Shown here: positions 32,070-50,301 of the stretch, in pieces
How the letters are laid out: each line of letters opens with the position of its first letter
Numbering within the stretch: the stretch's first letter is position 1
DNA from: Thermithiobacillus tepidarius DSM 3134
Lineage (GTDB): Bacteria; Pseudomonadota; Gammaproteobacteria; Acidithiobacillales; Thermithiobacillaceae
Assembly (NCBI RefSeq): GCF_000423825.1
Contig: NZ_KE384096.1
Span: forward strand, 124,001 to 188,000
Direction of reading: 5' to 3'
Length of the DNA: 64,000 bases
Position numbers and translations under genes: made by a program
Notes under the pieces: generated by a model
Told to the model about the DNA's origin: nothing
What the model saw: the letters and a program-made list of their open reading frames with translations, nothing else
The model's database searches: none

Positions 32070-32374
32070 CGGATCTCCCCCATGGCTTCGACCGCGCTCA
32101 GCCAGTAGAAGATGCCGGCGCCCGGCAGCTCCGTCCGCAGGCGGTCGAGCAGGGCATTCGCCGCCTCGCGGCTGACGATGAGCTGCACCTGCATGCGTCG
32201 GCTGCGGCCGAGCACCTGTTCCGCGGTGCTCCAGCGGGTGGGATCGGCGCCGTGGCCGGCCACCTGGATGCTGGTGAAGGCACTGGTCTCCGGAGAGACC
32301 AGCAGCAGGTCCAGCAAGTTCTCCTCCGCTTCCGGGGAGACGATCAGGTTCAGGCAGCACAGTTGCTCAGCCAT
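32066..32374 (-). CDS. DUF3240 family small protein of the metal-efflux operon
   Basis: A 102-residue soluble protein with the DUF3240 pattern: an LNLIVSPEAEENLLDLLL strand-helix start, a GHG turn (VAGHGADPTRWSTAEQV), then RMQVQLIVS and a final YWLSAV. The fold is ferredoxin-like or PII-like, often encoded beside heavy-metal RND pumps; no function is established. Its start overlaps the pump stop by eight bases and its stop overlaps the channel gene, so it is translated with the pump. GGAGG precedes the ATG at 32374. Confidence 0.85.
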   Translation of the reverse strand: MAEQLCCLNLIVSPEAEENLLDLLLVSPETSAFTSIQVAGHGADPTRWSTAEQVLGRSRRMQVQLIVSREAANALLDRLRTELPGAGIFYWLSAVEAMGEIR

Positions 32375-35300
32375 GGCGGGCCTCCTTCGGATGGGCGAAG
32401 CGCAGGTAGAGGATGGGCAGCAGGATGAGGGTGAGCAGGGTGGCCGTGATCAGGCCGCCGATCACCACGATGGCCAATGGGCGCTGGATTTCCGAACCGG
32501 GACCGGTGGCGAAGAGCAGCGGCACCAGGCCGAAGGCGGTGATGGAGGCGGTCATCAGCACCGGGCGCAGACGCCGCTTGGCGCCGGTGACCACCACCTC
32601 GCGCAGGTCCATGCCGGCGGCGTGCAACTGGTTGAAGTAGCTCACCAGCACCACGCCGTTGAGCACGGCGATGCCCAGCAGGGCGATGAAGCCCACCGAG
32701 GCCGGCACCGACAGGTACTCGCCGGATGCCCACAGGGCGACGATGCCGCCCACCAGGGCGAAGGGGATGTTGCTGAGCACCAGCAGGGCTTGGCGCACCG
32801 AGCCGAAGGTGGAGAAGAGCAGCAGGAAGATGAGTCCCAGCGAGACCGGCACCACCAGGCTCAGGCGCTTGGCGGCGCGCTGCTGGTTCTCGAACTGGCC
32901 GCCCCAGGTGATGTGATAGCCGGTCGGCAGCTTCATTTTTTGCGCCACCAGCCGCTTGGTCTCGTCCACGAAGCCGACCAGGTCGCGCCCGCGCACGTTG
33001 GCGATCACGACGCTGTAGCGGTTGCCCATCTCGCGCTCGATCTTCACCGGCCCGTCCGACCGCTCCAGCGTGGCAATGCTGCTCAGCGGGATGCTGGTGC
33101 CGTCCGGCCGGGTCAGACGGGTGGCGGCGAAGGCGGCGGGGGACATGCGGATGTCCTCGGCGCCGCGGATGAGCAGCGGCGTGCGGCGCACACCCTCGAT
33201 GACGATGCCGGCCCGGCGGCCGTCGATTTCGGCGCGCAAGGCGTCCTGGATGGCATCCGCCGACAAGCCCTGGCGACCGGCGGCGAGCCGGTCGATGAGC
33301 ACGCGCAGGTACTGCACGCCTTCGTTGCGCACCGTGTAGACGTCCTCGCTGCCCGGAATGCCGCGCAACAGAGTGTCCAGTTGCGCCGCCAGCGCGTTGA
33401 GCTGCTGCAGATCCGGTCCGAAGATCTTGGCGGCCACGTCCCCGCGCACGCCGATGATCATCTCGGACACACGCATCTCGATGGGCTGGGTGAAGTTGTA
33501 CTGGACGCCCGGGAACTGGTCCAATACCCGGCGCAACGCATCCAGCAGGGCCTGCTTGCTGTCGACCCGCCACTGATCGCGCGGCTTGAGCACCAGGAAG
33601 GTGTCGGTCTGGTTCAGGCCCATGGGATCGAGGCCGATCTCGTCCGAGCCCACGCGCGCCACGATGCGCTCCACCTCCGGGACCTGCGCCAAAATGGCGC
33701 GCTGGATGCGCAGGTCCAGCGCGGCGCTTTCCTCCAGGCTGATGGAGGGCAGCTTCTCGACGCCGATCACCACCGTGCCCTCGTCCATGGTGGGCATGAA
33801 GGTCTTGCCCACGCGGGTGTAGAGCACGGCGGCGATGATCAGCAGCACGACCGCTCCGAGGCCGATTAGGCGCGGGCGCCGCAGCGCGCCTTCCAGGGCC
33901 GGTCCGTAGGCGCGCAGCAATTGCCGCACCAGCCACGGGTCCTCGTGCCCGATCTTTTTCAGCAGGAAGGAGGCCAGGACCGGAATCACCGTGAGCGAGA
34001 GCAGCAGGGAGCCGGCCAGGGCGAAGACGATGGACAGCGCCACCGGGATGAAGAGCTTGCCTTCCAGCCCTTGCAGGGTGAGCAGTGGCAGGAAGACGGT
34101 GATGATAATGAGAATGCCGGCGGTGACCGGAACCGTCACCTCGCGCACCGAGCGGTATACGAGATGCAGGCGCGGCACCTTGCCGGCGTACTTGTCGTGG
34201 GCCAGATGCTGCACCACGTTCTCCACCACCACCACGGCGGCGTCCACCAGCATGCCGATGGCGATGGCCAGCCCGCCGAGACTCATGAGGTTGGCCGACA
34301 GGCCGAAGACGCTCATCAGAATGAAGGTGATCAGCGCCGCCAACGGCAGCACCAGCGCCACCGTGAGCGCGGCGCGCAGGTTGCCCAGAAAGAGGGTGAG
34401 TAGGATCAGTACCAGCACCACCGCTTCCAGCAACGCCTTGGAAACGGTGCCAACGGCCTGGTTGACCAGATCGGCGCGATCGTAAAAGACCTCCACGCGC
34501 ACGCCGGGCGGCAGGGCGGTCTGCAGCTCCGCCAAGCGCGCGCGCACGCCCTCGACCACCTGACGCGCGTTGGCGCCGCGCAAGCCGAGCACCAGGCCTT
34601 CCACCGCCTCGCCCTTGCCGTTTTCGGTGACGGCGCCCAGCCGGGTGATGTGGCCGATGCGCACCAATGCCACGTCGCCCACCCGCACCGGCACGCCGTC
34701 GCGCACCGCCACCACCACTTGGCGCAAGTCGTCCAGGTTTTGGACACGGCCCTCGCTGCGCACCAGCAGCATTTCCTCGCCCTCGTTCAGGCGGCCGGCG
34801 CCGTCGTTGCGGTTGTTGTTCTGCAGTGCGGCCTCCAGCTCGGCGCTGGAGATGCCAGTGGCGGCCATCCGGACCCGGTCGGGCACCACCTCGAAGGTGC
34901 GCGCCACGCCGCCCAGGGCATTGACGTCGGCAACGCCGGGCACGCTGCGCAGCGCCGGGCGGATCACCCAGTCCAGCAGGGTGCGTCGTTCCATTTGGCT
35001 CAGCCCACCGCCTTCCACCGTGAACATGAACATCTCGCCAAGCGGCGTGGTGATGGGCGCCAGGCCGCCGCTGATGCCGGGCGGCAGTTCGCCGAGGATG
35101 CCGTTCAGGCGCTCGGCCACCTGCTGGCGGGCCCAATAGATGTCGGTGCCGTCCTCGAAGTCCAGGGTGATGTCCACCAGGCCGTACTTGCTGACCGAGC
35201 GCAGCATGCGTTGGCGCGGGATGCCCAGCATTTCCATCTCGATGGGCTGAGTGATGCGGGTTTCCACTTCTTCCGGCGTCATGCCGGGTGCCTTCATGAT

Positions 35301-35447
35301 GATCTTGACCTGGGTGCTGGAGACGTCCGGAAAGGCGTCGATGGGCAGGCTGCGGAAGGCCAGCCAGCCGCCAATGGCCAGGAGCACGGTCGCCAGCACG
35401 ATGAAGAGCCGCTGGCTGAGCGCGAATTGGATCAGGCGGGCCAGCAT
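32367..35447 (-). CDS. Heavy-metal efflux RND pump (CzcA/CusA family)
   Basis: An inner-membrane, proton-driven metal transporter of 1026 residues with twelve predicted helices and two large periplasmic domains. The charged TM4 motif reads GMLVDAAVVVVEN, intermediate between the CzcA and CusA forms, so the substrate (divalent Zn/Co/Cd/Ni or monovalent Cu/Ag) cannot be fixed by eye. N-terminal residues LPIDAFPDVSSTQVKI fit the HME-RND branch. Start ATG at 35447, one base after the membrane-fusion gene. Confidence 0.93.
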   Translation of the reverse strand: MLARLIQFALSQRLFIVLATVLLAIGGWLAFRSLPIDAFPDVSSTQVKIIMKAPGMTPEEVETRITQPIEMEMLGIPRQRMLRSVSKYGLVDITLDFEDGTDIYWARQQVAERLNGILGELPPGISGGLAPITTPLGEMFMFTVEGGGLSQMERRTLLDWVIRPALRSVPGVADVNALGGVARTFEVVPDRVRMAATGISSAELEAALQNNNRNDGAGRLNEGEEMLLVRSEGRVQNLDDLRQVVVAVRDGVPVRVGDVALVRIGHITRLGAVTENGKGEAVEGLVLGLRGANARQVVEGVRARLAELQTALPPGVRVEVFYDRADLVNQAVGTVSKALLEAVVLVLILLTLFLGNLRAALTVALVLPLAALITFILMSVFGLSANLMSLGGLAIAIGMLVDAAVVVVENVVQHLAHDKYAGKVPRLHLVYRSVREVTVPVTAGILIIITVFLPLLTLQGLEGKLFIPVALSIVFALAGSLLLSLTVIPVLASFLLKKIGHEDPWLVRQLLRAYGPALEGALRRPRLIGLGAVVLLIIAAVLYTRVGKTFMPTMDEGTVVIGVEKLPSISLEESAALDLRIQRAILAQVPEVERIVARVGSDEIGLDPMGLNQTDTFLVLKPRDQWRVDSKQALLDALRRVLDQFPGVQYNFTQPIEMRVSEMIIGVRGDVAAKIFGPDLQQLNALAAQLDTLLRGIPGSEDVYTVRNEGVQYLRVLIDRLAAGRQGLSADAIQDALRAEIDGRRAGIVIEGVRRTPLLIRGAEDIRMSPAAFAATRLTRPDGTSIPLSSIATLERSDGPVKIEREMGNRYSVVIANVRGRDLVGFVDETKRLVAQKMKLPTGYHITWGGQFENQQRAAKRLSLVVPVSLGLIFLLLFSTFGSVRQALLVLSNIPFALVGGIVALWASGEYLSVPASVGFIALLGIAVLNGVVLVSYFNQLHAAGMDLREVVVTGAKRRLRPVLMTASITAFGLVPLLFATGPGSEIQRPLAIVVIGGLITATLLTLILLPILYLRFAHPKEARHG

Positions 35448-35448
35448 G

Positions 35449-36570
35449 CTATTCGCCTCCGCCGCTGTCGCCCTGCCAGGCCGCTTTCAATGCCGCCACG
35501 CCGGCCACGGCCACTTGTTCGCCCGCCTTGAGCGGACCGCGCACGCGCACCCTCTGGTCGGCGCTGCCCAGCACGGTCACCGGGCGCGCGGTGAAGCCGG
35601 CGCGGGTGCGCACGAAGACATAGGCTTGACCTCGATCGCGCACCACCGCAGCCAGCGGCAGATCCCAGGCATCCGGGCCGCTCGCCAGGGGCAGGGCCAC
35701 CTGCACGAACTCACCGGGCCGCAGCTGCGCGGTGCCGCTTTCCACCACGGCACGCAGGGCGACGGTCTGGCTGCCGCCGGCCACCGCGGGGCTGAGGCTC
35801 AGGATGCGAGCGCTGGCTTCCCGGCCGGGCACCAGCACGCGGGTGCCGGGCTGCCAGCGGGCGGCCTCCTGGACCGGCACCTGGATGTCGAGCCACAGCT
35901 CCTTCAGGCTGGCCAGGCGCAGCAGCGGATCGGCCGCGGCCACCCGCTGGCCCAGCCGGGCCTCCAGCGCCAGCACGGTGCCCGCCTGCCGGGCGCTCAC
36001 CGTGACGTTGTCCTGCAGCTTGCCGCTGCGCTCCACCTGGGTGATGGCGGCGGCGCTCAGACCGGCCAGGCGCAGGGCGGCGCGGGCTTGCTGCAGTGCG
36101 GCTTCGGCCTCGCTCAGGTTGGCCTCGGCCTCCTGCACCCGCCGCAGCGGGGTGATGCCTTCCCGGTTCAGGTTGCGCTCGCGGCTGGCGGTTTGCCGCG
36201 CCAGGCGGGCGCGGCTGGCGGCTTGCTGCAACTGCAGCTGCAAGGGGCCGAGCTCGGGACTGGACAGCTGCAGCAAGGGCTGGCCGGCGCGCACCGGCTG
36301 ATTGGGCTGCACCAGCACGCGGGTCACGAGTCCTCCCACCGGAGCGCTCACTACCTGCTCCTGGCTCGGCGGCAGGACCACCTGTGCCGGGAAAGTGGTG
36401 CGGATGGCGCCGCCGGAAGCCTGCAGGGTGGCGACCCGGATGCCCAGCGCCTGCATCTGCCGGGCACTGACCGGGAATTCAGCCGCAGGCGCTGCCTGGG
36501 CCGGGATCGAAATCATCAAGGCACAGAGGCCAACCCAGAAGGCGGCACGGCCGGGGCGGAATGCAAGCAT
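35449..36570 (-). CDS. Periplasmic adaptor (membrane-fusion) subunit of the metal RND pump
   Basis: A 373-residue membrane-fusion protein with a signal peptide (cleavage near residue 26, AQA). A lipoyl/barrel-sandwich domain is formed by VVSAPVGGLVTRV and NVTVSARQAGTV flanking a coiled-coil hairpin (about 105-165). Beta-barrel and membrane-proximal domains follow. It joins the inner-membrane pump to the outer-membrane channel. The ATG at 36570 has GGAGAA upstream. Confidence 0.9.
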   Translation of the reverse strand: MLAFRPGRAAFWVGLCALMISIPAQAAPAAEFPVSARQMQALGIRVATLQASGGAIRTTFPAQVVLPPSQEQVVSAPVGGLVTRVLVQPNQPVRAGQPLLQLSSPELGPLQLQLQQAASRARLARQTASRERNLNREGITPLRRVQEAEANLSEAEAALQQARAALRLAGLSAAAITQVERSGKLQDNVTVSARQAGTVLALEARLGQRVAAADPLLRLASLKELWLDIQVPVQEAARWQPGTRVLVPGREASARILSLSPAVAGGSQTVALRAVVESGTAQLRPGEFVQVALPLASGPDAWDLPLAAVVRDRGQAYVFVRTRAGFTARPVTVLGSADQRVRVRGPLKAGEQVAVAGVAALKAAWQGDSGGGE

Positions 36571-36650
36571 GGATATTCTCCGCGCAAGTTGGAAGAAGCG
36601 ATGCCGGACGGACCGGGATCGTGATGCACGCCAGGCCTACAAGGCCTAGC

Positions 36651-37079
36651 TTAGACCAACAGGGCGGCGGGTGGGGCGCGGGTGGAGGGTGGGGAGCCTG
36701 GATCGGGGTGGCCGGCGGGTACTGCGTCCTCGCCCGCGAGGACACGCGGGGCTGGCGTCACGATCCGCAGGGCGATCAGCAGGAAGAACAGATCGGGGGC
36801 CGGCACCGGCAGGAGCTGCGGATCTTCCTTGATGGCGCTGCCGAGGCCGATGGTCTGCACCTCATGCTGGTCCGGGCTCCATTGGTGCAGCTGGGTGTTT
36901 TCCGCTGCCGGAGCGGCTAGGGCCAGAGACCATCCTTCCGCCGCGGCGTTTTCCGTCCAGTGCAGATGCACGCCCTTGCTGCCGTAGGACGCCAGCGGGT
37001 GGGCATGCAAGAGGGGCGCGGCCAGCTGCAGAGCCAGCAGGAGCAGCACCAGCAGCGTGGAGGGGATGGACAGTCGCAT
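36651..37079 (-). CDS. Small exported protein heading the metal-efflux operon
   Basis: A 142-residue protein with a leucine-rich signal peptide (MRLSIPSTLLVLLLLALQLA, cleavage near 26, HA). A His-containing stretch follows (HPLASYGSKGVHLHW; later HQWSPDQHEVQ), then a possible second hydrophobic segment at about 95-107 and a Pro-rich tail. I cannot assign a family; CzcI-like small secreted regulators occupy the same position in some czc operons. It ends 80 bases before the adaptor gene. No ribosome site precedes the ATG at 37079, and the likely promoter would give a leaderless message. Confidence 0.7.
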   Translation of the reverse strand: MRLSIPSTLLVLLLLALQLAAPLLHAHPLASYGSKGVHLHWTENAAAEGWSLALAAPAAENTQLHQWSPDQHEVQTIGLGSAIKEDPQLLPVPAPDLFFLLIALRIVTPAPRVLAGEDAVPAGHPDPGSPPSTRAPPAALLV

Positions 37080-37085
37080 GGGCTT

Positions 37086-37114
37086 ACAATAAGAAATGGC
37101 AAATGAAAACACAA
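37086..37114 (-). promoter_or_regulatory. Candidate promoter of the metal-efflux operon
   Basis: Read on the minus strand: TTGTGT (37109-37114), 17-base spacer, TATTGT (37086-37091). The start of transcription would fall at or next to the ATG at 37079. Each box matches the sigma-70 consensus at four of six positions. Confidence 0.4.
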
Positions 37115-37259
37115 GCATGCCGCTGATGCGCTGCAAGTCCAGGGAAATGCGCTCGCAATGCGGTCTTGGAAATGCGGCTTCTTGCTGCAACGTCTGGGGG
37201 TGGAGAGGGCGGGGGAGTGACTCGGGCACGGTGGTACATGGGTGGAGGCCGGTGGAGCC

Positions 37260-38891
37260 TCAGGACCGCCCCAGCTTGAACTGATTGACCAAATCCTGCA
37301 GTGTCCGGGCGGTGGCGGCCAGATCGCCGACGGCCTGGCTGGTGCGCTGGATGTCGCGGGTGGTGGCGTCGGTGATGCTGGCGACCTGCTCGATGTTGCG
37401 GGCGATTTCGGTGCCGACCGCGGACTGCTCCTCGGCGGCGGTGGCGATCTGGTGCATCATCTCCGTCACCGCGCGCACGGCCCGATCGATCTCCTGCAGG
37501 GCGCGGCCCGCTTCCTGGCCGTAGCCGACGCCTTGGGTGACCTCGCTGCGGGCCTGGGTCATGGCGGTCACCGCATGCGCCGTGCTGGCTTGCACCGTCT
37601 GCACGATGCTGGCGATATCGGTGGTGCTGGCGGCGGTGCGCTCGGACAGCTTGCGCACCTCGTCGGCCACCACGGCGAAGCCGCGGCCCTGCTCGCCGGC
37701 CCGTGCCGCCTCGATGGCGGCATTGAGCGCCAGCAGGTTGGTCTGCTCGGCGATGTCCTTGATGACATTGGTCACCTCGCCGATGCGCTGGATGGCGGTG
37801 TCGAGCTCGCCGATGGTCTTGGCGGAGGAACTCACGGTGCTGTCGATGCGGTTCAGGGCCGCGATGGTCTGCTGGCCGGTGGCATTGCCGCCTTTGACCA
37901 ATTCCGCCGCCTGATTCGCCGCGTTGGCGGCGCTGCTGGCGTTCTGCGCCACTTCCTTGACCGTGGTGCTCATCTCCTCCATGGCGGTGCTGATCTGGAA
38001 GATGCCGTCGGCCTGCGCCTTGGCGTCGCGGCTCACGCTGGCGGCCATGTCGTTCAGCTGCCCACTGGCGCCGGCGGTCTGCACCGAAGCATCGCGCACC
38101 TGGGCGACGATGCCGTGGATCTTGCGGATGAAGTCGTTGATGGAGCGCGCCAGGCTGCTGATCTCATCGTGGCCGTCCTCGGGCACGCGGCGGGTGAGAT
38201 CGCCGTCGCCCTGGCGCAGCTCGTCGATGGCGCCCAAGACCACCTGCAGCCGCCGGGTGATGTTGCGCACCACCCACAGCACCAGCAGGCCGCCCAGCAG
38301 CATGGCGGCGACAGCCAGCGCGATGCTGAGGGTCATGATGGTCTGCGCCTGATCGAGCACCTCGTTCTTGGTTGCTTCCACGGCGTCGCGCTTGGCCTTG
38401 ATGATGTCCAGCAGGTTCTGGCGCACTACGCGCCACAGGGGAGTCTCGATTTTATTGAGGGTGCGGACCGCCTCCTGCGTGTCCGTCGCCGCCAGCTGGA
38501 TGATGCGCATCTTGACTTCCATGTCCCGCTGCCAGGTCGCGCCGGTTTCCTGCAGCAGTTTGTGCGTTTCCGGATCGTTCAAGCTCAGCCTGAGCGCCTC
38601 TTGATGCGCGGCGCTGAAGCCCTTGGCGGAATCGTTGAAGTTGTCGTAGGCCTTCTTGTTCAGCGGGTCGAAGATGATGTTGCGCAAGGCTTGGCCGCTT
38701 TGCAGGCCTTGGGCGTACATGCTTTCCAGCGCCTGCAGCAGGGCTTGGTCCTGGTTGATGAAGCTCACGAAGTGGGCACTGCTGTTGCGCATGCCGCTCA
38801 GGGCCACGAGGATGGCCACCAGGAAGAGCGCAAAGGCCGCGCCCGTGGAGAAGATCAATTTGCCTTTGATGGTTTTAGCGTTGGTCAACAT
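37260..38891 (-). CDS. Methyl-accepting chemotaxis protein (transmembrane)
   Basis: A 543-residue chemoreceptor. One TM helix is near the N-terminus (about 10-33) and a second near 188-210 encloses a 150-residue helical periplasmic sensor. HAMP follows, then a signalling domain with the tip [20 protein letters not shown]. The ligand is unknown. I chose the ATG at 38891 (MLTNAKT) because AAGGAAGGA precedes it; a longer frame begins 13 codons upstream with a poorer site. Confidence 0.94.
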
Positions 38892-38979
38892 GGTTCCTTC
38901 CTTGGATTCGCTAAATTTCTTGATAATCATTCCGTTTTGGATGGCTGTGCGGGTACGAATGGCGTAGCCCGTTGCGCCG

Positions 38980-39942
38980 CTATTTGCCCACCCTGGCGGC
39001 GTGGTTCAGAATGGGCCGCAGAACCTCTCCCAGCTCCTTGGGATTGAACTTGGGCACGTAGGCGTCCACGCCGACCGCCTTGCCGACATTGACGTTGGCC
39101 TCGCTGGACAGGGATGAGTGCATGACCACCGGAATGCCCCGGAAGCGCGGGTCGTTCTTGATGTGCTTGGTCAGCACGTAGCCGTCCATCTCCGGCATCT
39201 CCACGTCGGTGAGCACGGCCTGGATCATCTCGTACATGGGCGTGCGGGTCGTCTCGGCGCGCGCTGCCAGCTGCTGCAGCTTGTCCCAGGCCTCCTGGCC
39301 GTTGTGGGCGCTGATGTAGTGGACGCCCAGGTGGGTCAGGGTGGTTTCGATTTGCTTGCGCGCCACCGGCGAATCATCGGCGAAGAGCACGGTGCCGCCG
39401 TTTTCGATGGGCCGCAACTCGTCGAAGAGGCGCGGGTCCATGCCGATCTGGATGGTGTCCGCCAGCACCTTTTCCACGTCCATGATCATGACGATGCGCC
39501 CGTCCTTCAGCTCGGTGACGGCGGTGACCAGCCCACCCATCCGTGCCGTGATCATGGGCGGCGGCACTTTGATCTGTCCCCACTCCAGGCGCAGGATGTT
39601 TTCCACGTTGTGCACCAGAAAGCCCTGGGTATGCTTGTTGTACTCTGTCACGATCATGATGCGGGGCTGGCTCTCCGGCCGTACCCCGCAGAACTTGGCC
39701 AGGTCCACCACGGGCACCAGTTGGCCGCGCAGGCTGACCATGCCTTCCACCGCCGGCGGCATCTCCGGCGCCTGGGTGATTTCGGGGATGCGCATGACCT
39801 CGCGCACCTTGAAGACATTGATCCCGAAGGTTTCCTCTCGGCCGGAATTCAAATCCCGGCCCAAGTTGAAGAGCAGGATTTCCAGCCGGTTGGCACCGGC
39901 CAGCCGGGTACGCTCATCGACTGACTGCATCAAACTCGCCAT
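38980..39942 (-). CDS. cheV: Chemotaxis coupling/response protein CheV
   Basis: A 320-residue fusion of a CheW-like coupling domain (about 12-165) with a receiver domain (about 183-318). The receiver has the acidic pair in VLFADDSP (188-189), the phosphate-accepting aspartate 246 in [11 protein letters not shown] and the conserved lysine in YVPKF (298). It couples receptors to CheA and is tuned by phosphorylation. CheA is not in this window. The ATG at 39942 is used; a GTG five codons earlier is possible. Confidence 0.93.
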
Positions 39943-40020
39943 GGTTGCTGGCTCCACTGGATGTTGCGCGTGAAAAGTGAGGAGTGAAACGTGATGCGTG
40001 CTGCGCCGCCCGACGCCATG

Positions 40021-41391
40021 TCACGGATCACGCGGTTGCAGGCTGCCGCGCAGCATGCCCAATAGTTTTTGCACCTGGGCGGAGTGGTCCAGCAGACTAT
40101 CGAGCCGGCGCTTGGCTTCCTCCAGGCGTCCGTTCTGCACGTGCTTCAGGATCTCGCTGCCCAATTCGTGCACTTTCCGGTGCTGGGGCTCGAGATCCAC
40201 AAAGGCCTTGAGCTGCCCGTAGCGGATCTTGCCCGGTCCGTAGTACCACTTGCCCAGGCGGCAGCCGTGCTGGTCCTTGAGCGCCGGCATCTCCTCGGCG
40301 GGGCCGGCGGCGACCCTGCCGACCACCTCCTTGACCCACAGCAGGTGGTCTGCCTGGGTGACCAGCAGGAACAGGTCATCGAAAGGCCACTCGGCGAAAT
40401 GCCCCATTTCCTGCGCGGCCAGGCTGCTGATGCTGTCGATGACGCCCTGCAGGTCGTGCAGCGACTCCTCGTGCTGCTGCACGATGCGGGACAGCTCGGC
40501 CAGGCTGTGCGCCATGTCCGTGGCCACGCTGCTCTGCTCCTCGGCGGCGGTGGCGATCTGGTGGACCCGGTCGTTGACGTGGGTGACCGCCTGATTGGCC
40601 TCGGACAGCACGATGGCCACGTTTTCCAGGGATTCCTGGCTGGAGCCCAGATGCTCCAGGCCTTCGTGAATGGTGCTCTCCACCGTGCGGGACTGCTGGC
40701 CGATGGTCATCGTGACCAGGTCGATTTCCTGGGCGGCCTGGGCCGATTTTTCCGCCAGCTTGCGCACCTCGTCGGCGACCACGGCGAAGCCGCGGCCCTG
40801 CTCGCCGGCGCGCGCCGCCTCGATGGCGGCATTGAGCGCCAGCAGATTGGTCTGGTCGGCAATGTCCTTCATCTTGGTGGTCAGCTCGGTGATGGTCTGG
40901 GTGCTACGCACGAAGTCGCCGACCGCCTGCGCCATCACGCGCACCGCCGATTCCACCAGGTCCATCTCCCCGACCAGCTTGGACAGGGCCTCGTTGCCAT
41001 GGCGCGTCTGCTCCAGGCTGTTGGCGGACTCGCTGGCGGCCAGGGCGGCGTTGCGGGCAATCTCGTTGGCGGTGGCGGACATTTCCTCCACCGCCGTGGC
41101 CACGCCCGAGATCTTGCTGAAGTCCTCGGCAAAGCCGGCGGCAAAATCCGCCACCGAGCGGCTTGCCTGGGTGGTGGCCGCGATGATCTGCACGCCTTCC
41201 TCGGCCACGCCGACCAGGCGCTGATGCCAGCCTTCCAATTGCTCCAGCGGGTGGCGCACGGCCGACCAGGCTTCCGGGTGCGCCTTCTGCAACTGCCGCA
41301 TCTGCTCGAAGTCGGCCTGCAGATAGGCGCTGAGCAGGCCGATCAGGTGCTGCGTGCCCGCCATCCTTTGCAAGGGGCTTAACTTGGCCAT
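40021..41391 (-). CDS. Soluble chemoreceptor with C-terminal CZB zinc-binding domain
   Basis: A 456-residue cytoplasmic receptor with no membrane segments. The signalling domain (about 75-330) contains the tip [20 protein letters not shown]. The C-terminal CZB domain has its likely zinc ligands at H349, C377, H404 and H408 ([31 protein letters not shown]). CZB domains sense zinc or oxidants such as hypochlorite. GGGAG precedes the ATG at 41391. The metal-efflux operon lies a few genes away. Confidence 0.93.
40754..40854. repeat. Direct repeat, copy A (receptor tip, soluble receptor)
   Basis: 101 bases identical to 41861-41961, covering the receptor hairpin tip codons. Confidence 0.8.
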
Positions 41392-41484
41392 GGTCACTCT
41401 CCCGAACGTTGGCGTGCTGCTGTGAGCTGTCGGTGAATGGTGTCACCCGGTATGCATCCGCTGCGGCGCATCGGCGCCTGGATG

Positions 41485-43110
41485 CTAGCTGCGGAATTTG
41501 GCCACCAGGTCCTTGACGGTGCTGGCCATGGTCTGCAGCTCGTCGGTCTTGCTGCGCGTTTCCTGAATCGCGTTGTTGATGTTCTGCGTGCCCTGGGCGA
41601 TTTTCTCGATGCTGTTGGAGATCTCCGAGGCCACGCTGCTCTGCTCCTCGGCGGCCGTGGCGACCGCGGCGATCTGATCGGTGACCTGGGCGGTGGCATT
41701 GTTGATCCGATCCAGGGCCTGGCCGGCGTCACGGGCGTAGCGCGTGCCTTCCTCCACCTGCTGACGACCGGTCTCCATGGCCTGCACGGCGGCCTGGGTC
41801 TCGTTCTGGATGGCCTGGATCATGCCGCCGATCTCGCCGGTGGCGTTGGCGGTGCGCTCGGCCAGCTTGCGCACCTCGTCGGCGACCACGGCGAAGCCGC
41901 GGCCCTGCTCGCCGGCGCGCGCCGCCTCGATGGCGGCATTGAGCGCCAGCAGATTGGTCTGCTCGGCGATCTCATTGATGGTGGCGATGATGCTGCCGAT
42001 GCGCTGGGAGGATTCGCCCAGCTTGCTCACCGTGCCGGCTGCGTTGTGCATGGCGGCGGCCACCTGGTCCATGCCGGTGAGGGTGCCGCGGATGACCTGG
42101 GCGCCGCTCTGGGCCTCCTGGCTGGTGCGGCGGGCGGCCTCGGCGATCTCCTCGGCGCGGCGGGCCACCTCCATGGCCGTGGCGGACATTTCTTCCATGG
42201 CGGTGCTGACGTGCACGGTCTGGCCGCTTTGCTCCTCCATGTCGCGGGCCAGGGTTTCCGTTGCGCCTTTCTGTTGCCGGGCAGCGGTGAGCAGCCTGTC
42301 CGCGTTGTTCTGCATCTCGCGGGTGAGAACACGCAGCTGTTCCGCCATCTGGTTGGCGGCCTTGGCGATATCGCCCAGTTCGCCGGCGGTCTCCACGGGC
42401 ACCTCCACCCGCAGGTCGCCGCGCGCCACTTTCTGCAGGGCGTCGCGGACGCGGCTGAGATTGCGGATCAGACCCTTGATGAGCAGCATGCCCAGGAGCA
42501 CGACCACGCCCACGGAGATGCCGCCGCTGACCAGGAGGAAGAGCCGGGTCTGCTCGGCCATCCGGGTGGCGGCGGTGGATTCTTCCAACGCGCGCTGCGT
42601 CTCGTGCCGCAGGAAGTTTTCGGCTGCCTGGATGTGCCGGTTGTAGGCGGGAACGGTACGGCTTTCCAGGAGCGTGCGTGCCTCGTCGAAGCGGCCGGCG
42701 CGGGCCAGGGCGCGGGTCTGGTCGACGACGGCACGGCTGTTGTCGCGGGCCTGGATCAGAGCCTTGAACTGGGCGGTTTGCTCCGGCGTGTGGGCCAGGG
42801 CTTTCAGCTCCTTGAGCGCCTTGGCGTAGTTGGGCCGGTTGCCGTTGATGCGCGCTTCCATGCGTTGGGTAACGACCGGGTCGCGGCTGTAGACCATGGC
42901 TTCCAGTGCCGAAAGGGTGGAGTTGGCCCGGCGCTCGATCTCCGCCAAGTGGATCGTGGCGAGCTGTCGCTCCTGAGCCTGGACGATGTTCTCTTGCAGC
43001 TTTGCCGAGGTGAAGATGGCGATTGCCGCGCCCGCGGTCATCGCGCACGCGGCAAACAGAACGCCGATGCTCAAACGTGTTTTGAACGCCATGCGGTTAA
43101 AGCTGAACAT
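41485..43110 (-). CDS. Methyl-accepting chemotaxis protein (transmembrane, helical sensor)
   Basis: A 541-residue receptor with TM helices near 8-32 and 186-208, a four-helix-bundle-type periplasmic sensor, HAMP and a signalling domain with tip [20 protein letters not shown]. The start is the ATG at 43110 (MFSFNRMAF) with AGGAAAG upstream. A 101-base segment of the tip is identical to that of the neighbouring soluble receptor. Confidence 0.94.
41861..41961. repeat. Direct repeat, copy B (receptor tip, third receptor)
   Basis: 101 bases identical to 40754-40854. The corresponding segment of the first receptor (about 37650-37747) is similar but differs at several sites. Confidence 0.8.
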
Positions 43111-43528
43111 GAGCTTTCCTGTCCTTGTGTTCGATTGATGATGAAAGGCCGCTCCTCTATCAGCACAAAACGTGCCAAGTGACTGTTCGCTGCGCCAATG
43201 GCGGCCCGGGTGTAAAGTGATAACGGCACACGTGCCCAAAACTTTAGCCGCGCCGCCGGGCCGGCCGCAGCCGCCGATCGCGCTTTTGACGCCGGGGTTT
43301 CGCCGGTCAGCATCGTCAAGAAAATGGCGCGGGGCGCGGGTGCCTGTGCCAGACTTGGGTAGCCGGTGCATTCCAGGTATGCTTTCGAACAGCCGACAGC
43401 GCTGCGCCGGCAGCCCCTGCAAAAACCTTTCCAGGCCTCGCTGGTCCAAAGGTGAGTAGCTTGCTGGACTTTTTGTCTGCTTCTATCTATTTGGCCCGGA
43501 GAGGGTCCTGATCTCAAAAGGACTGCTT
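43111..43528. other. Gene-free gap between receptor and CbiM-like gene
   Basis: 418 bases with no convincing gene. The frames here have no ribosome site or family resemblance. It should hold divergent promoters; a weak TTGCTG (43461-43466), 17 bases, TATCTA (43484-43489) could serve the CbiM-like gene. I looked for a cobalamin riboswitch B12 box and a c-di-GMP riboswitch core and saw neither. Confidence 0.5.
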
Positions 43529-44188
43529 GTGCACATCGAAGATGGTCTCCTGACTCCCTTCTGGCTCGCCCTGGGCTGGGTGCTGGTACTGCCGGTGCTC
43601 CTGCTGGCCGCCCGAAACGTGCGTTGGCAGTTCCTCAGGGAGCGCGGTACCGTATTCGGCCTGGCGGCGCTCTTCGTGTTGGCGCTATGGTCGGTGCGCG
43701 CGGGCATTTACCCCGGCCTCAACGTGCATCTGCTTGGCGGCATGCTGCTGACGCTGATGTTCGGGCCATGGCCGGCCATGCTCGTCCTCGCGGGCCTGGT
43801 GGCGCTCCTGGCCGGCTTCGGCGTCGGCGGGTGGTGGAGCCTCGGGGTGAACCTGCTGGCCCTGGCGGTCGTGCCGGTGCTGGCGGCCTACGGCATCCTG
43901 CGGGTCGTGGAAAAGCATCTGCCCAGCCATTTTTTCATTTATATTTTCGTGGTGGCCTTCATCGGCAGCGCCCTCACCATCGCGGCCTTGAGTGCCGTCG
44001 TTACTTTCTTTCTGCTCATCTCGAATGCCTACACTTTGCATTTCCTGATCGACAACTGGCTGATTTCCATGATTCTGGATGCCTGGGGCGAGGCCCTCAC
44101 CACCGGCATGCTGATCACCCTGATGGTGGTGTACCGTCCCTACCTGGTCAGCACCTTCGACGACAATCGTTATTTGAAAGGGAAGTAG
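43529..44188 (+). CDS. CbiM-like energy-coupling-factor permease
   Basis: A 219-residue inner-membrane protein starting MHIEDG, close to the MHIPDG N-terminus that forms the metal site in CbiM/NikM components. About six helices follow. The characteristic GxNVHLLGGMLLTLMFGPWPA region is near residue 65. It belongs to a proteobacterial branch often seen without CbiN, CbiQ or CbiO, as here; the transported ion is unknown. GTG start at 43529 with AAAGGA seven bases before. Confidence 0.88.
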   Translation: MHIEDGLLTPFWLALGWVLVLPVLLLAARNVRWQFLRERGTVFGLAALFVLALWSVRAGIYPGLNVHLLGGMLLTLMFGPWPAMLVLAGLVALLAGFGVGGWWSLGVNLLALAVVPVLAAYGILRVVEKHLPSHFFIYIFVVAFIGSALTIAALSAVVTFFLLISNAYTLHFLIDNWLISMILDAWGEALTTGMLITLMVVYRPYLVSTFDDNRYLKGK

Positions 44189-44214
44189 TTGCTTTTTTAA
44201 TCACGAGGCTGTGC

Positions 44215-44958
44215 ATGCGTCTTGCCCCATCTCCCGCAGTTCTGATTTTCCTGCTGTTCCTGACCGCTCTGCCCACCGCCCAGGGGGCGGACCGGGGGGC
44301 CGAGCGGGTGCGCTCCGCCCTGCAGGCCCGCTTCCCCGACGCACAGATCGACATGCCGCATCCTTCCTCGATTCCGGGTTACTATGAAGTGACGGTCGGC
44401 AGCCAAGTGCTCTATGCCAGCCACAATGGCCGCTATCTCATCGTCGGCGACCTGATCGATCTGCAGCAGGACGCCAACCTGTCCGAGCTCAAACGCATGG
44501 CGCTGCGCCGCGACATTCTCGACAGCATCGACCCGTCGCAGATGGTGGTGATGGGGCCCGCGGGGGCGGGCCGCCACCTGACCGTCTTCACCAACGTGGA
44601 CTGCCAGTTCTGCCGCAACATGCACAAGGAGCTGAAGACACTCGCGGCCGGCGGCGGGGTGCAGGTGCGCTACGTGCTCCTGCCCGAAGGCCGCGCCGAC
44701 TCGGGCACCTATGCCAAGACGCTGTCCGTGCTGTGCGCGCCGAACCGGCTGCTGGCCCTGGACAAGGCCATGGCCGGCGGGCAGTTGCCCCGGCGCCAGT
44801 GCGCCGTGCCCGTCAGCCTCTTCCTGAATACCGCCCGCAAGCTGAACGTGCGCGGCCTGCCGACCACCGTGCTGGACAATGGCATGATGCTCTCCGGCTT
44901 TGCCTCGGCGCCCCAGTTGGAGCGCATCCTGCAGGTTTCGCCGGCCGTGGACGAATAA
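44215..44958 (+). CDS. DsbC-like periplasmic thiol:disulfide interchange protein
   Basis: A 247-residue exported protein: signal peptide to about residue 24, N-terminal cystatin-like dimerisation domain (about 30-90), then a thioredoxin domain with the active site C130-Q-F-C133 and the cis-Pro in RGLPTTV (216). A second cysteine pair (C174, C196) probably forms a structural disulfide as in DsbC. GAGG precedes the ATG at 44215. It is 26 bases from the CbiM-like gene. Confidence 0.9.
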   Translation: MRLAPSPAVLIFLLFLTALPTAQGADRGAERVRSALQARFPDAQIDMPHPSSIPGYYEVTVGSQVLYASHNGRYLIVGDLIDLQQDANLSELKRMALRRDILDSIDPSQMVVMGPAGAGRHLTVFTNVDCQFCRNMHKELKTLAAGGGVQVRYVLLPEGRADSGTYAKTLSVLCAPNRLLALDKAMAGGQLPRRQCAVPVSLFLNTARKLNVRGLPTTVLDNGMMLSGFASAPQLERILQVSPAVDE

Positions 44959-44985: not shown

Positions 44986-47544
44986 ATGATCTCCCACACG
45001 CACACCCTGATCCTGACGGGCACGGCCCGCTTGGCCCGGCATTTGCGCGCCCGGGGCCGGCAGGCCGCGCCCGAGGGCGGCAAGGCCGCCGTGCTGCCGC
45101 TGGAGGAGTGGCTGCGGCAGAGCTGGCTGCCGTTGGCGGAGGGGGAGTCCCTCCTGACACCGGTCCAGGGGCTTTTCCTGTGGGAAGACATCATTGCCGC
45201 GGATGCGCAGCTGGCGGGCACGGATCTGCTGGACCGCGCCAGCCTCGCCTACCTGGCCGAAGAGGCTTTTCAGCTTCAGTGCGCCTTTGGAGCGCCCCCC
45301 GCCGCCTTGCTCGGGACGCCCGAATGCCAAGCATTTCAGCGCTGGGCCGCCCGCTTTCAAGTCCGCTTGCGCGACGGCGGCTGGCGCCACCCCGCCCAGA
45401 TTCCCGGACGCCTGCGGCTCGCCGTGGCGGCGCGACGCCTGCCGCTGCCCGGGCGCATCCTCCTGGCCGGGTTGGATGAGCTGTCGCCGGCGCTGGAAAT
45501 GCTGCTGCAGTCGCTCGCCGATGCGGGCGTGTCGGTCGGCACTTGGCGGGAGGAGGCCGCGCCGGCCGTGCCCACGCTGCTGGCTTTTGCCGATCGCGAG
45601 CAGGAGGTGCGCGGTGTGGCGGCGCGCATTCGCGAGGGCTTCGCTGCTGGACAGCGGGTCGGCGTGGTCGTGCCCGACCCGGCGGCGTATCGCCCTCTCA
45701 TCGAGCACATCTTCCTGGAGACCTTCGATCCCGAGGCGCTGTTCCTGACCGCGGAAAACGGCGGGCAGCCGCGTCCCGTGCCCTTCGACATCACCCAGGG
45801 ACGCCCCCTGGAGCGGGCGCCGCTCATGCTGCAGGCCTTCCGCATTCTCGAGCTGTCCCTGCGGGGGCTGGAAGCGCGGATGGCGGCGGAACTGCTGCTG
45901 GCGCCTTTCCCCCGTGGTGACGGCGAGCGTTGCGGACGGGCGCAAGCGGAAGCGCGGCTGCGCGGCGGCGCGGCGCGCCTGGATCTCTTCGCGTTGGCCC
46001 AGCACTGCCTGCTGATGGCGCCCGGCTTCGCCCAGCGCCTGCTGCAGCTGCACCACATATTGCGGCAGGCGCCGGCGCGGGCGAGCTGCCAAGCCTGGTC
46101 CATCCATTTCTCCGCCTGCCTGGAGGCGATGGGCTGGCCCGGCGACGGCCTGGACCGCGGCGAGGAACTGGCTTTGGCGCGCTGGCAAGAAGCGCTGGCG
46201 CATTTCGAGGGCTTGGCCCCGCTGGCGGGCTCCCTGTCCCGGCGCCAGGCGCTGAGCTGGCTGCGGCGGGTCTGCCGGCACATCGTCCACCAGGTCCCCG
46301 CCGATTCGGACGACGTGCAGGTCATGGGCTTGCTGGAAGCGGCGGGCCTGCGCTTCGACCGGCTTTTCGTGCTGGGCATGACGGATCAGGCGATGCCGGC
46401 GGCGGTGCGGCCCCATCCGCTGCTGCCGGCGTCTTGGCAGCGTCAGCGGGGCCTGCCCCACGCCAGCCCCGAGCAGGAGTTGCACTTCGTGGGTGCGCTG
46501 TGGCAGCGCCTCCTGCGGGCGGCTCCGCAAGTGGTGTGCAGCTATCCCCGTATGGACGGCGATGTGGAGCTGGGCCCCAGTCCCTTGCTCGCCGGCCGGG
46601 AGATCACCCGCGTGGAGGCGCCGCAGCGGTCCTTCTGGCAGGGCTGGAGCCCCGCCGGCGCCCTGGCCGCGTCGCCGGACGACGCGGTGCTGCCCGCCCG
46701 CCGGCGCGAGGGTGGGCCGGCCCTGCTGCAGGCCCAGGCGAACTGTGCGTTCCAGGCGCTGATCCGCCACCGGCTGGCGGCTTTCCCGCTGGAGGACTTC
46801 CAGACGCCGCCCACTGCCCGCGATCTGGGCACGCTCGTCCACCGCGCCCTGCAGCACTTCTGGAAGGCGACCAAGAGCCAGCAGACCCTGCTGGCCATGA
46901 TGGCCGGCGGCACCCTGGACGATGCGCTGGTCCAGTGCATCCGCAAGGCGCTGGACGAGGCCGGATTCGACATCGACGCGGTGCACCGGCGAGCCTTGGC
47001 CGACAGCCTGCAGCAGCTCCTGGCGCGCTGGATGGCGCTGGAGAGCGAGCGGCCGGCCTTCGTGGTGGAGGCGCTGGAGCAGACGGTGGAACTGCAGGTG
47101 GGAAGACTGCGCCTGCGCATGCGGCTGGATCGGGTGGACCGCCAAATATCCGACGCCGCCCGCATCGTAGTGGACTACAAGACCGGCGCGCAGGCCAGCA
47201 GCAAGGATTGGCTCGGGCCAATGGGAGACCCGCAGATGCCGCTCTACATCTGGGCCGTGGATGCGGCGGCGGGAGTGTACGGCAAGCTGAACCGGGAGCG
47301 GACCCTGGCCTGGGACGGCTGGGGACAGGATGCCTTCTGGCCCGGATTGGCCAGCCTGGCGGACTGGGAGGCACAGCGCACCCAGTGGCGCCGGGAGCTG
47401 GAGGCGCTGGCGGCCGCCTTCGTGGACGGGCCGGTGCGGATGCTGCCGCGGCATGGCGCCAAGACCTGCGTCCGCTGCGGCAGCCAGGTTTTCTGCCGGG
47501 TCCAGGAGCGCGGCCTGGCCGAGCCGGCGATGGACGAGGACTAG
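44986..47544 (+). CDS. AddB-like PD-(D/E)XK nuclease of a recombination helicase pair
   Basis: An 852-residue protein with an inactive helicase-like N-terminal part and a C-terminal RecB-type nuclease. The catalytic core IVVDYKTG is near residue 730 and an upstream HRALQHFW is near 620. A likely 4Fe-4S site is built from one cysteine near 588 (QANCAFQ) and the C-terminal group CVRCGSQVFC (about 830). This is the AddB-like family annotated as probable DNA repair protein. It is three bases from the helicase gene. Confidence 0.88.
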   Translation: MISHTHTLILTGTARLARHLRARGRQAAPEGGKAAVLPLEEWLRQSWLPLAEGESLLTPVQGLFLWEDIIAADAQLAGTDLLDRASLAYLAEEAFQLQCAFGAPPAALLGTPECQAFQRWAARFQVRLRDGGWRHPAQIPGRLRLAVAARRLPLPGRILLAGLDELSPALEMLLQSLADAGVSVGTWREEAAPAVPTLLAFADREQEVRGVAARIREGFAAGQRVGVVVPDPAAYRPLIEHIFLETFDPEALFLTAENGGQPRPVPFDITQGRPLERAPLMLQAFRILELSLRGLEARMAAELLLAPFPRGDGERCGRAQAEARLRGGAARLDLFALAQHCLLMAPGFAQRLLQLHHILRQAPARASCQAWSIHFSACLEAMGWPGDGLDRGEELALARWQEALAHFEGLAPLAGSLSRRQALSWLRRVCRHIVHQVPADSDDVQVMGLLEAAGLRFDRLFVLGMTDQAMPAAVRPHPLLPASWQRQRGLPHASPEQELHFVGALWQRLLRAAPQVVCSYPRMDGDVELGPSPLLAGREITRVEAPQRSFWQGWSPAGALAASPDDAVLPARRREGGPALLQAQANCAFQALIRHRLAAFPLEDFQTPPTARDLGTLVHRALQHFWKATKSQQTLLAMMAGGTLDDALVQCIRKALDEAGFDIDAVHRRALADSLQQLLARWMALESERPAFVVEALEQTVELQVGRLRLRMRLDRVDRQISDAARIVVDYKTGAQASSKDWLGPMGDPQMPLYIWAVDAAAGVYGKLNRERTLAWDGWGQDAFWPGLASLADWEAQRTQWRRELEALAAAFVDGPVRMLPRHGAKTCVRCGSQVFCRVQERGLAEPAMDED

Positions 47545-47547
47545 TGC

Positions 47548-50301
47548 ATGATCGCGGATCAGACGACGCGCAGCGAAGTGCTGGACTGCAGCCGTTCCTT
47601 CCTGGTGCAGGCGCCGGCCGGCTCGGGCAAGACCAGCCTGCTGATCCAGCGCTTTCTCGCGCTTCTCGCCCGCGTCGAACGGCCCGAGCAGGTGCTCGCC
47701 ATGACCTTCACCCGCAAGGCGGCCGGGGAGATGCGCGAGCGCATCATCCAGGCGCTGCGAAGCGCGGCGGGGGCGCCGCCGGCGGAGGCCCACGCCCTCG
47801 TCACCCACCGGCTGGGCCAGACGGTGCTGCAGCGGGATGCCCAGCTCGGCTGGCGGCTGCTGGACAATCCCGGGCGCCTGAACGTGATGACCATCGACAG
47901 CTTCTGCAGCACCATCACCCGTGCCATGCCCCTGCTGGCCCAGTTCGGTGCGCAGCCCGAAACCATCGATGATGCTGCGCCCTTGTACACCCAGGCGGCG
48001 CAGGCCACCCTGGCGCTGGCCGCCGACGACCCGGATCTGCAAAAGGCCCTCTACGTGCTGCTGTTGCAGGTGGACGGCCGGCGCGACGCGCTGGAGCAGG
48101 TGATCGCCGTCATGCTGGCCCGCAGGGAGCAATGGCAGGACTGGGTGGTGGCCGGCGCCGCCCGGACGGCGGACCTGCGCCTCCTGCTGGAAGCGGGACT
48201 GAGTGCCGCCGTCGAACGCGCGCTGGCGCCGCTCAGGCAGCGTCTCGACGGGCGCCTGCTGGACACCCTGGTCCAGGTGGCCGCCTGCAGCCGCGAGCAG
48301 CTGCTGGCCCGGGACAAAACCTGCCCGTGGGAGGCCGTTTGCACGACGGGGCCCCATGCCCTGGCCTACTGGCAGGCGGCGGCGGAGCTGCTGCTGACCA
48401 GCCAGGGCACTTGGCGCAAGCAGATCGGCGAGGCCATGGGGCTGCCCGCCAAAAGCCCCGGTCAACTGGCGCTCAAGGCACTCATCGCCGGGCTCGCCGA
48501 TGATCCGGCCTTGGCGGAACGCCTGCACGCCTGCCGCTCCCTGCCGCCGCCGCAGCTGGCCGAGTCCACCTGGGAGGTGCTGGAAGCCATGCTGCAGATC
48601 CTGCGCCTGTCGCTCGGCCAGCTCTGGCTCGTGTTCCAGCAGGCCCGGCAGATCGACTACACGGGGGTAGCGCTGGCCGCCGTGCAGGCGCTGGGCACGG
48701 CCGAGGAGCCGTCGGAGCGGCTGCTGGCTCTGGATGCCCAGATCCAGCATCTGCTGGTGGACGAGTTCCAGGACACCTCCATCCTGCAGGGCAACCTGCT
48801 GGGCCTGCTCACCGCCGGCTGGCAGCCGGGCGACGGCCGTACCCTGTTTGCCGTGGGCGATCCCATGCAGTCCATCTATCGCTTCCGCAAGGCCGAGCTG
48901 AATCTCTTTCTGCAGGCCTGGGAGAGCGGCCGCATCAAGCACGTGCCGGTCACCACGCTCAATCTGGCGGTGAATTTCCGCTCCGAATGCAGTCTGGTGG
49001 ACTGGTGCAACGCCGTGTTCCGGGAAGCTTTTCCGGATGCCCACGATCTGGAGCGGGGCGCCGCGGCCCATTTCGAGAGCGAAGCGCATCGCGGCGACAG
49101 CCATGACGCGCACGTGACGCTGCACTATTGGTCGGCGCCGGATCCCGTGGACGAGGCGCGGGTGGTGGCGGCGGAGGTGCAGACCGCCTTGGCCGAATCC
49201 GCCGGCAAGGTGGCCATTCTGGTGGCCAGCCGCAGCCATGCCCAGCCCATCATGGCCGCCCTGCGCGATGTCGGCGTGCCGTACCGGGCGCAGGACATGG
49301 ATCCGCTGCTGAGCCGGCCGGTGGTAGGCGACCTGCTGGCGCTCACGCGCGCCCTGCTGCACCCGGCCGACCGCCTGCACATGCTGGCGGTACTGCGCAG
49401 CCCTATGGTGGGCCTGTCCCTGGCGGATCTGCTGGCCCTGACCGAGCACGAATCGCTGGAGACGGAACAGGGCCGCCCGCCCGCCGTGATCGAGCGCCTG
49501 CTGGAGGATGCCGGGCCTTTGAGCGCGGATGGCCAGCTTTGCCTGCAGCGCTTCCTGCCCGTATGGCGGGCGGCGCTGGCGCGCCTGGGACGCAGCCCCG
49601 TGGAGAGGTTGGTGCGCTCCCTCTGGCTCAGCCTGGGTGGACCTTTGTGCACCGACGCCACCGGCTGGCAGGACGCGGAGCGCTTTTTCGCCCAGCTGGC
49701 ACGCCTGGAAGGGGAGCAGCGCCTGACCCTGGAAAACCTGGACCAGGCGCTGGAGCGGCTCTATGCGGCGGCGAACGCCGATCCGGCGCTGCGGGTCGAG
49801 ATCATGACCATGCACAAGGCCAAGGGCCTGCAGTTCAATACCGTGATCCTGCCACAGCTCAGCCGCAAGCGCGGCCAGGACGACCTGCCGTTGCTGCTGC
49901 TGGAGGAGATGCTCGACGGCAGCATTCTCATCGCGCCGCGTCCGGCGCGCGGGCGCAGCCACGAGGACGACCGGTTTTACCAATGGTTGCTGCGCCGGGA
50001 GCGCCAGCGTCTGCACGAGGAGCGCAAGCGCCTCTTCTACGTGGCCGTCACCCGTGCCGAGCGCAAGCTCGTGCTGTGCGGCGTGGCGGCGGACAAGAAC
50101 GGGGTGCCGGAGCCGCAAGGCGAACTCTTCAAATACGTCTGGTGCGACGACCTGCCCATGCGGCGCATCGGCCATGCGGCGGGCGGCGGGGCCATGGCGG
50201 GCGCCGGCCAGCCGCAGCGGGTCCGGCCGGACTGGCAGCGGCCGCCGCTGCCCGAGACCTTGCCGGTGTCATGGAAGCGGGCGGTGGGGGAGGAGGATTG
50301 A
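47548..50301 (+). CDS. AddA-like UvrD/RecB-type DNA helicase lacking the C-terminal nuclease
   Basis: A 917-residue superfamily 1 helicase. Walker A is APAGSGKTS (22-30), motif II VDEFQDTS (about 404-411), motif III around VGDPMQSIYRFRKAE and motif VI RLFYVAVTRA (about 830). Most AddA/RecB-like partners carry another 150-250 residues with a second nuclease; this one ends at PETLPVSWKRAVGEED. It is immediately downstream of the AddB-like nuclease, so the two should form the end-processing complex for double-strand break repair (inference). Confidence 0.9.
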   Translation: MIADQTTRSEVLDCSRSFLVQAPAGSGKTSLLIQRFLALLARVERPEQVLAMTFTRKAAGEMRERIIQALRSAAGAPPAEAHALVTHRLGQTVLQRDAQLGWRLLDNPGRLNVMTIDSFCSTITRAMPLLAQFGAQPETIDDAAPLYTQAAQATLALAADDPDLQKALYVLLLQVDGRRDALEQVIAVMLARREQWQDWVVAGAARTADLRLLLEAGLSAAVERALAPLRQRLDGRLLDTLVQVAACSREQLLARDKTCPWEAVCTTGPHALAYWQAAAELLLTSQGTWRKQIGEAMGLPAKSPGQLALKALIAGLADDPALAERLHACRSLPPPQLAESTWEVLEAMLQILRLSLGQLWLVFQQARQIDYTGVALAAVQALGTAEEPSERLLALDAQIQHLLVDEFQDTSILQGNLLGLLTAGWQPGDGRTLFAVGDPMQSIYRFRKAELNLFLQAWESGRIKHVPVTTLNLAVNFRSECSLVDWCNAVFREAFPDAHDLERGAAAHFESEAHRGDSHDAHVTLHYWSAPDPVDEARVVAAEVQTALAESAGKVAILVASRSHAQPIMAALRDVGVPYRAQDMDPLLSRPVVGDLLALTRALLHPADRLHMLAVLRSPMVGLSLADLLALTEHESLETEQGRPPAVIERLLEDAGPLSADGQLCLQRFLPVWRAALARLGRSPVERLVRSLWLSLGGPLCTDATGWQDAERFFAQLARLEGEQRLTLENLDQALERLYAAANADPALRVEIMTMHKAKGLQFNTVILPQLSRKRGQDDLPLLLLEEMLDGSILIAPRPARGRSHEDDRFYQWLLRRERQRLHEERKRLFYVAVTRAERKLVLCGVAADKNGVPEPQGELFKYVWCDDLPMRRIGHAAGGGAMAGAGQPQRVRPDWQRPPLPETLPVSWKRAVGEED

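Follow-up and report, generated by a model that had tools for sequence, protein, structure and literature searches.

Near-identical tips of two neighbouring, otherwise dissimilar chemoreceptor genes in Thermithiobacillus tepidarius suggest recent gene conversion

Conversion between the tufA and tufB genes of Salmonella leaves tracts that are mostly contiguous and is blocked by large sequence differences, as described in the available part of that study (PMC5485169). The tuf genes are near-identical over 1185 nt, whereas the two chemoreceptor genes of Thermithiobacillus tepidarius DSM 3134 that we consider here, termed R2 and R3, resemble each other only over a tip of about 100 nt; 1.1 kb apart, they have about 21% of their residues in common outside it. 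Copies of rRNA operons within a genome likewise stay alike through concerted evolution, a likeness that the R2 and R3 tips show too, but the block in R2 and R3 is short, protein-coding and set within divergent genes (PMC6002687). Among chemoreceptors, a possible parallel is offered by Tlp2, Tlp3 and Tlp4 of Campylobacter jejuni, paralogues that like R2 and R3 combine identical signalling parts with diverged sensory parts (PMC9769880); there the whole signalling domain is identical, whereas in R2 and R3 it is the tip alone, and the genes are neighbours. The accessible text of that paper invokes domain duplications, and its sole mention of gene conversion concerns loss by pseudogene formation. 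Recombination inside a chemoreceptor gene, as proposed for R2 and R3, is also described for mcp2-1 (TP0488) of Treponema pallidum Mexico A, a mosaic gene ascribed to exchange between subspecies in the available portion of the report (PMC3447947). TP0488 is a single locus, exchanged between subspecies and changed partly in its sensor domain, in contrast to two genes of one genome with a common tip. In the accessible parts of two further papers, gene conversion is tied to tpr genes rather than to receptor tips (PMC6197692, PMC3373638), and conversion between chemoreceptor tips did not appear in the titles or abstract openings of the open-licence matches listed.

R2 and R3 lie within the 64-kb stretch of DNA that was analysed as a whole (hereafter the window), in which the initial annotation had reported two identical segments. 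Letter comparison revealed that positions 40754-40854 and 41861-41961 are identical over exactly 101 nt at an offset of 1107, with neither end extendable. The second-longest exact direct repeat of the whole window reaches only 32 nt, and a repeat scan of the same 64 kb found no inverted repeats of at least 30 nt. Both copies are on the minus strand inside chemoreceptor genes, the first in R2 (40021..41397) and the second in R3 (41485..43110). R2 carries an MCPsignal domain (PF00015, 2.9e-39) and a C-terminal CZB domain (PF13682, 2.7e-14; 53.7 bits against a curated cut-off of 29.4), which make it a CZB-type chemoreceptor with a predicted zinc-binding domain; it is probably soluble, judging from the absence of HAMP or sensor matches in Pfam, and its candidate starts are GTG 41397 and ATG 41391. 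R3 is a membrane chemoreceptor with 4HB (PF12729), HAMP (PF00672) and MCPsignal (PF00015) domains, and its likely start is ATG 43110, giving 541 aa, with the longest listed open reading frame starting at 43449. The repeat comprises codons 1-34, minus the last base, of a 34-residue tip peptide (residues 182-215 in R2 and 384-417 in R3, the latter numbered from the likely Met at 43110), and the hairpin tip that it encodes matches residues 374-407 of E. coli Tsr. This hairpin-tip region makes the trimer contacts as well as the contacts with CheA and CheW.

The same cluster holds a third chemoreceptor gene, R1 (37260..38930, minus strand), identified from Pfam matches as having HAMP and MCPsignal domains, and, between R1 and R2, a gene for a CheV-like protein with a CheW and a receiver domain (38980..39957, minus strand; PF01584, PF00072). 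PF00015, the methyl-accepting chemotaxis protein domain with its conserved tip, is found in all of R1, R2 and R3, and the genome (G000; 43 contigs) holds seven receptors above the family cut-off plus one weak match. The R1 tip (37644-37745) uses the codons of R2 and R3 at 29 of 33 positions and has S in place of A at the last residue; the earlier remark that the first receptor differs at several synonymous sites thus holds, at 4 of 33 same-residue codons. Set against its own orthologue in the related genus, the R1 tip has merely 22 of 33 codons equal. R1 may have participated in the same tip exchange as R2 and R3.

Comparison of R2 with R3 along their length revealed that all 34 tip residues are identical, against 67 of 319 aligned residues elsewhere, in agreement with the initial description of the receptors as unlike outside the repeat. 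Codon choice at identical residues is divided in the same way, with the same codon at 33 of 34 positions in the tip and at 42 of 65 outside it, which rules out low synonymous divergence gene-wide; in a second alignment the outside count was 43 of 64 (Fisher p = 0.0003 versus the tip).

Evaluating these genes further, we compared them with the one other genome of the family, which belongs to a different genus (G001), was the sole further family member among 31 genomes searched for the taxonomic order, and has the orthologues of R1, R2 and R3 in the same arrangement (locus L039). A contig scan with the left part of R2 returned no third family member, only two distant receptors (Kapaibacterium and Flavobacterium), and conspecific strains did not turn up, so that the comparison is one of two genomes of the family. 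Outside the tip, orthologues share 56-62% protein identity, with R2 and R3 each at 56% to their counterparts. In the tip, R2 and R3 differ from one another at one codon and their counterparts in G001 at four, while orthologues differ at seven (R2) and six (R3), and five codon changes of G001 are common to its R2 and R3. Informative quartet sites in the tip group R2 with R3 by genome in five cases, by gene in one and crossed in none, and the sole gene-grouping site falls on the base that directly follows the repeat; outside the tip, 26 sites group by genome, 218 by gene and 14 are crossed. The repeat is thereby a contiguous tract with abrupt ends, orthologue-grouping sites returning at the base after it and no more than four codons before it. 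When the 21 receptor pairs of each genome are ranked by their longest uninterrupted stretch of matching synonymous codons, R2/R3 comes first in the one and its orthologous pair in the other (permutation p = 0.00041 and 0.00055, 100000 shuffles). Five control quartets drawn from R1, R2, R3 and the C33 receptor gave two to three paralogue-grouping, zero to three orthologue-grouping and zero to two crossed sites in the tip. At identical-residue columns all five lean towards paralogues (two to three sites against zero to one), and over all tip columns this holds for three, with one balanced and one tilted the opposite way. This lean, which hints at genome-wide codon bias or wider conversion, is smaller than the R2/R3 signal.

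On these grounds, we hold that the identical 101 nt probably arose when one of two neighbouring chemoreceptor genes, which differ strongly elsewhere, was recently converted by the other (ectopic, intrachromosomal gene conversion), and give this reading a probability of about 0.85. The initial annotation had suggested recent gene conversion from synonymous identity, and its suggestion is supported, most strongly by tips that group by genome between flanks that group by gene. Such a pattern would be one of concerted evolution, with conversion confined to the conserved tip. The hairpin tip would serve as template because it is the sole part of R2 and R3 that is near-identical in both protein and DNA; if the DNA were broken or gapped at or close to one tip, repair would draw on the tip 1.1 kb off, and the tract would halt where the genes diverge. 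The block observed is free of differences and has orthologue-like sequence on either side. The same pair is homogenised in both genera but with different codons, and the process would therefore have recurred or continued after the genera split. A likely consequence would be that receptors of one CheA/CheW array retain matched contact surfaces. The conversion mechanism itself is already known; a tract of about 100 nt limited to the tip of very different neighbours, and observed in two genera, clearly adds a new instance of it.

The explanation most in need of weighing is that 34 residues fixed by protein constraint in a GC-rich genome came by chance to be spelled with the same codons. Several observations lend this some substance. 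Elsewhere in the class, genomes have stretches of about 100-120 nt with up to 90-93% identity to the tip, and tip codons for T, I, V, E and D are more alike between genomes than flank codons, those for N, K and F less so, showing that site-specific codon preference exists in tips. Tip codons are also somewhat more alike than flank codons in 15 of 17 genomes with at least five receptors, and between genomes the composition-standardised codon likeness is 0.623 in the tip versus 0.600 in the flank; part of the R2/R3 codon identity is thus background. Nonetheless, codon bias is insufficient to account for 33 identical codons, because their chance probability ranges from 3e-9 when codon usage is that of nine genes in the window (R3 included in part), through 1e-7 when usage is taken column by column from 92 GC-rich receptors (24 genomes) and 2e-6 with the five other receptors of the genome as null, to 4e-5 with all seven, the most conservative null since it contains the repeat itself; corrected for 21 pairs, this last value is about 9e-4. 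Nor is the identity common to all receptors of the genome, as codon bias would have it: the other 20 pairs differ at 3 to 13 same-residue tip codons. We surveyed shared runs in 236 receptors of 52 genomes (957 within-genome and 24312 between-genome pairs, each with at least 28 comparable codons). Left out of the tip surveys, and likewise of the codon nulls above and the neighbour tests below, were tips lying at most 180 nt (upstream) or 240 nt (downstream) from a locus end and tips with more than nine residues off consensus, and in 12 genomes 143 of 156 matches remained after these exclusions and unretrieved loci. The longest run among the within-genome pairs is that of R2/R3, followed by one of 60 nt. 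Between genomes, runs of at least 60 nt occur in 7 of the 24312 pairs, all between near relatives within a sister family (f2). With the GC3 of R2 and R3 at 0.91, the relevant between-genome maximum is 49 nt, exceeded by none of the 2234 pairs at a GC3 of at least 0.88; at a GC3 of 0.80-0.88 it is 57 nt (5255 pairs). We therefore regard chance coincidence of codons as improbable.

Three further explanations fare worse. That the segment is common by descent, through a recent tandem duplication or domain swap, would suit two adjacent genes on the same strand, yet it is very hard to reconcile with 67 of 319 shared residues outside the tip when R2 and R3 each have 56% identity with their orthologues in the other genus. 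R2 and R3 showed no resemblance in their flanks beyond that between unrelated receptors, and an in-frame, in-place swap of only 101 nt amounts to gene conversion as meant here. Selection on the nucleotides themselves, whether through translation, RNA structure or an overlapping antisense frame, is just as improbable. Long open frames on the plus strand do overlie R2 and R3 (40069-41382 and 41437-43182; 437 and 581 aa), and the tip-over-flank codon excess of this genome (0.14) is the largest of the 17 genomes with at least five receptors. The sequence measures 68% GC, however, a composition at which open antisense frames are expected, and these frames more probably reflect GC-rich coding sequence than constitute genes. 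An Rfam search of 36500-44500 returned no match at the gathering threshold, and the related-genus tips, differing at seven and six codons with five changes common, were evidently free to change, but jointly. Finally, a short-read assembler might have collapsed two similar tips; the assembly consists of 43 contigs, and short reads are often 101 bases long. This would be still more surprising, as the R1 tip keeps its differences despite 32-nt segments in common with R2 and R3, and the pattern recurs independently in the related genome, where four codon differences persist.

Returning to gene conversion as the preferred reading, its direction can be approached through protein polarity at two tip positions. 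Relatives of R2 were sought with the part of R2 downstream of the tip across 274 genomes, and among the six best outside the family position 19 is A in all six and position 31 is K in five; in the sister family f2, R2-like receptors carry H and K there (7 of 7 aligned). Both R2 genes of the family instead have Q at 19 and R at 31, the same as R3, a combination found in 12 of 14 receptors counted across both family genomes. The four weaker R2 relatives vary at these positions, and the polarity is not strict because one of them (G063) has Q and R as well. We lean slightly towards the simplest reading, with R3, or an R3-like receptor, as donor and R2 as recipient, and with convergence a possible alternative reading of Q and R in R2.

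To place this pair in a wider setting, we evaluated adjacent receptor pairs in other genomes. A first look at genomes with at least five receptors contrasted 39 adjacent with 1027 distant pairs (Mann-Whitney p = 4e-5). Tip codon identity was then regressed on genome, on codon identity in the flank and on protein identity in both tip and flank, which controls in part for local codon habits. In a first set of 13 genomes, the 18 adjacent pairs less than 8 kb apart had a mean residual of +0.121, and without the two family genomes the remaining 11 pairs had +0.128 (0 of 4000 permutations). A second set comprised 7 of 15 searched genomes, picked for near receptor genes before their tips were examined, together with E. 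coli K-12. Receptors used were 11 of 11 in G336, 8 of 8 in G361, 6 of 6 in G269, 8 of 8 in G265, 16 of 17 in G161, 17 of 18 in G230 and 5 of 7 in G051; the pairs of G037 and G241, which lie 4-6 kb apart, did not enter the set. At less than 8 kb this second set of eight genomes showed no excess (17 pairs, +0.011, 1325 of 4000), and for E. coli tap-tar the tip codon likeness was slightly under expectation (-0.048). A 2.5-kb limit, which the trend with distance in the first set had prompted and which was imposed only later, gave 122 of 4000 permutations in the second set with recent duplicates and 17 of 4000 (four of four pairs positive) without pairs of flank identity of at least 0.6. For pairs in the other high-GC genomes of both sets, outside the two family genomes, that lie less than 2.5 kb apart and have flank identity under 0.6, all eight residuals were positive (mean +0.151, 0 of 4000), and pairs 2.5-8 kb apart showed no excess (13 pairs, -0.006, 2381 of 4000).

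Genomes of the sister family f2, which have few receptors each and lower GC3 and were absent from the main neighbour regressions, showed no excess among their eight pairs less than 2.5 kb apart (mean +0.001, five of eight positive, 1860 of 4000); with f2 included, the 16 pairs under 2.5 kb have a mean of +0.064, 11 being positive (5 of 4000). As an afterthought, the lower GC3 of the f2 pairs and tips with two to three residue differences would hinder recombination. The neighbour pattern is consistent with conversion between close neighbours in some genomes. It is considerably more doubtful that adjacent receptor genes in many, mainly GC-rich, bacteria repeatedly convert their tips alone, as the sole DNA alike enough, and thereby keep kinase-contact surfaces matched; this general rule is not proven, and we hold it slightly less probable than before because the f2 pairs show nothing. 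Other adjacent pairs with excess tip codon likeness are found at L172 (G151), L186 (G191), L119/L220 (G363) and L136/L209 (G291), with residuals of 0.13-0.27; apart from the pair of G291, which is also alike in its flanks (0.74), these are candidates for the same process.

That chemoreceptor tips are so strongly conserved is usually credited to purifying selection. If neighbours copy tips from one another, part of this conservation would instead be concerted evolution, receptor phylogenies built from tip sequences would be misled, and synonymous tip sites would record which receptors had exchanged DNA. Were the process general, gene neighbourhood would shape which receptors cooperate in one array while their sensing parts diverge. 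R2 and R3 would offer a simple test of whether recombination keeps array-sharing receptors compatible, and a natural example of conversion over about 100 bases between genes that are hardly alike as DNA elsewhere.

The surroundings of the receptor cluster hold further genes. Heavy-metal efflux functions adjoin the receptors at 32367-36570 on the minus strand, with a CusA/CzcA-family pump and its adaptor subunit. About 2 kb past the cluster on the other side, the plus-strand stretch 44986-50301 encodes a nuclease of the TIGR03623 'probable DNA repair protein' subfamily, above cut-off, and an AddA/RecB-like helicase whose best match is below cut-off; together these are likely double-strand break repair enzymes.
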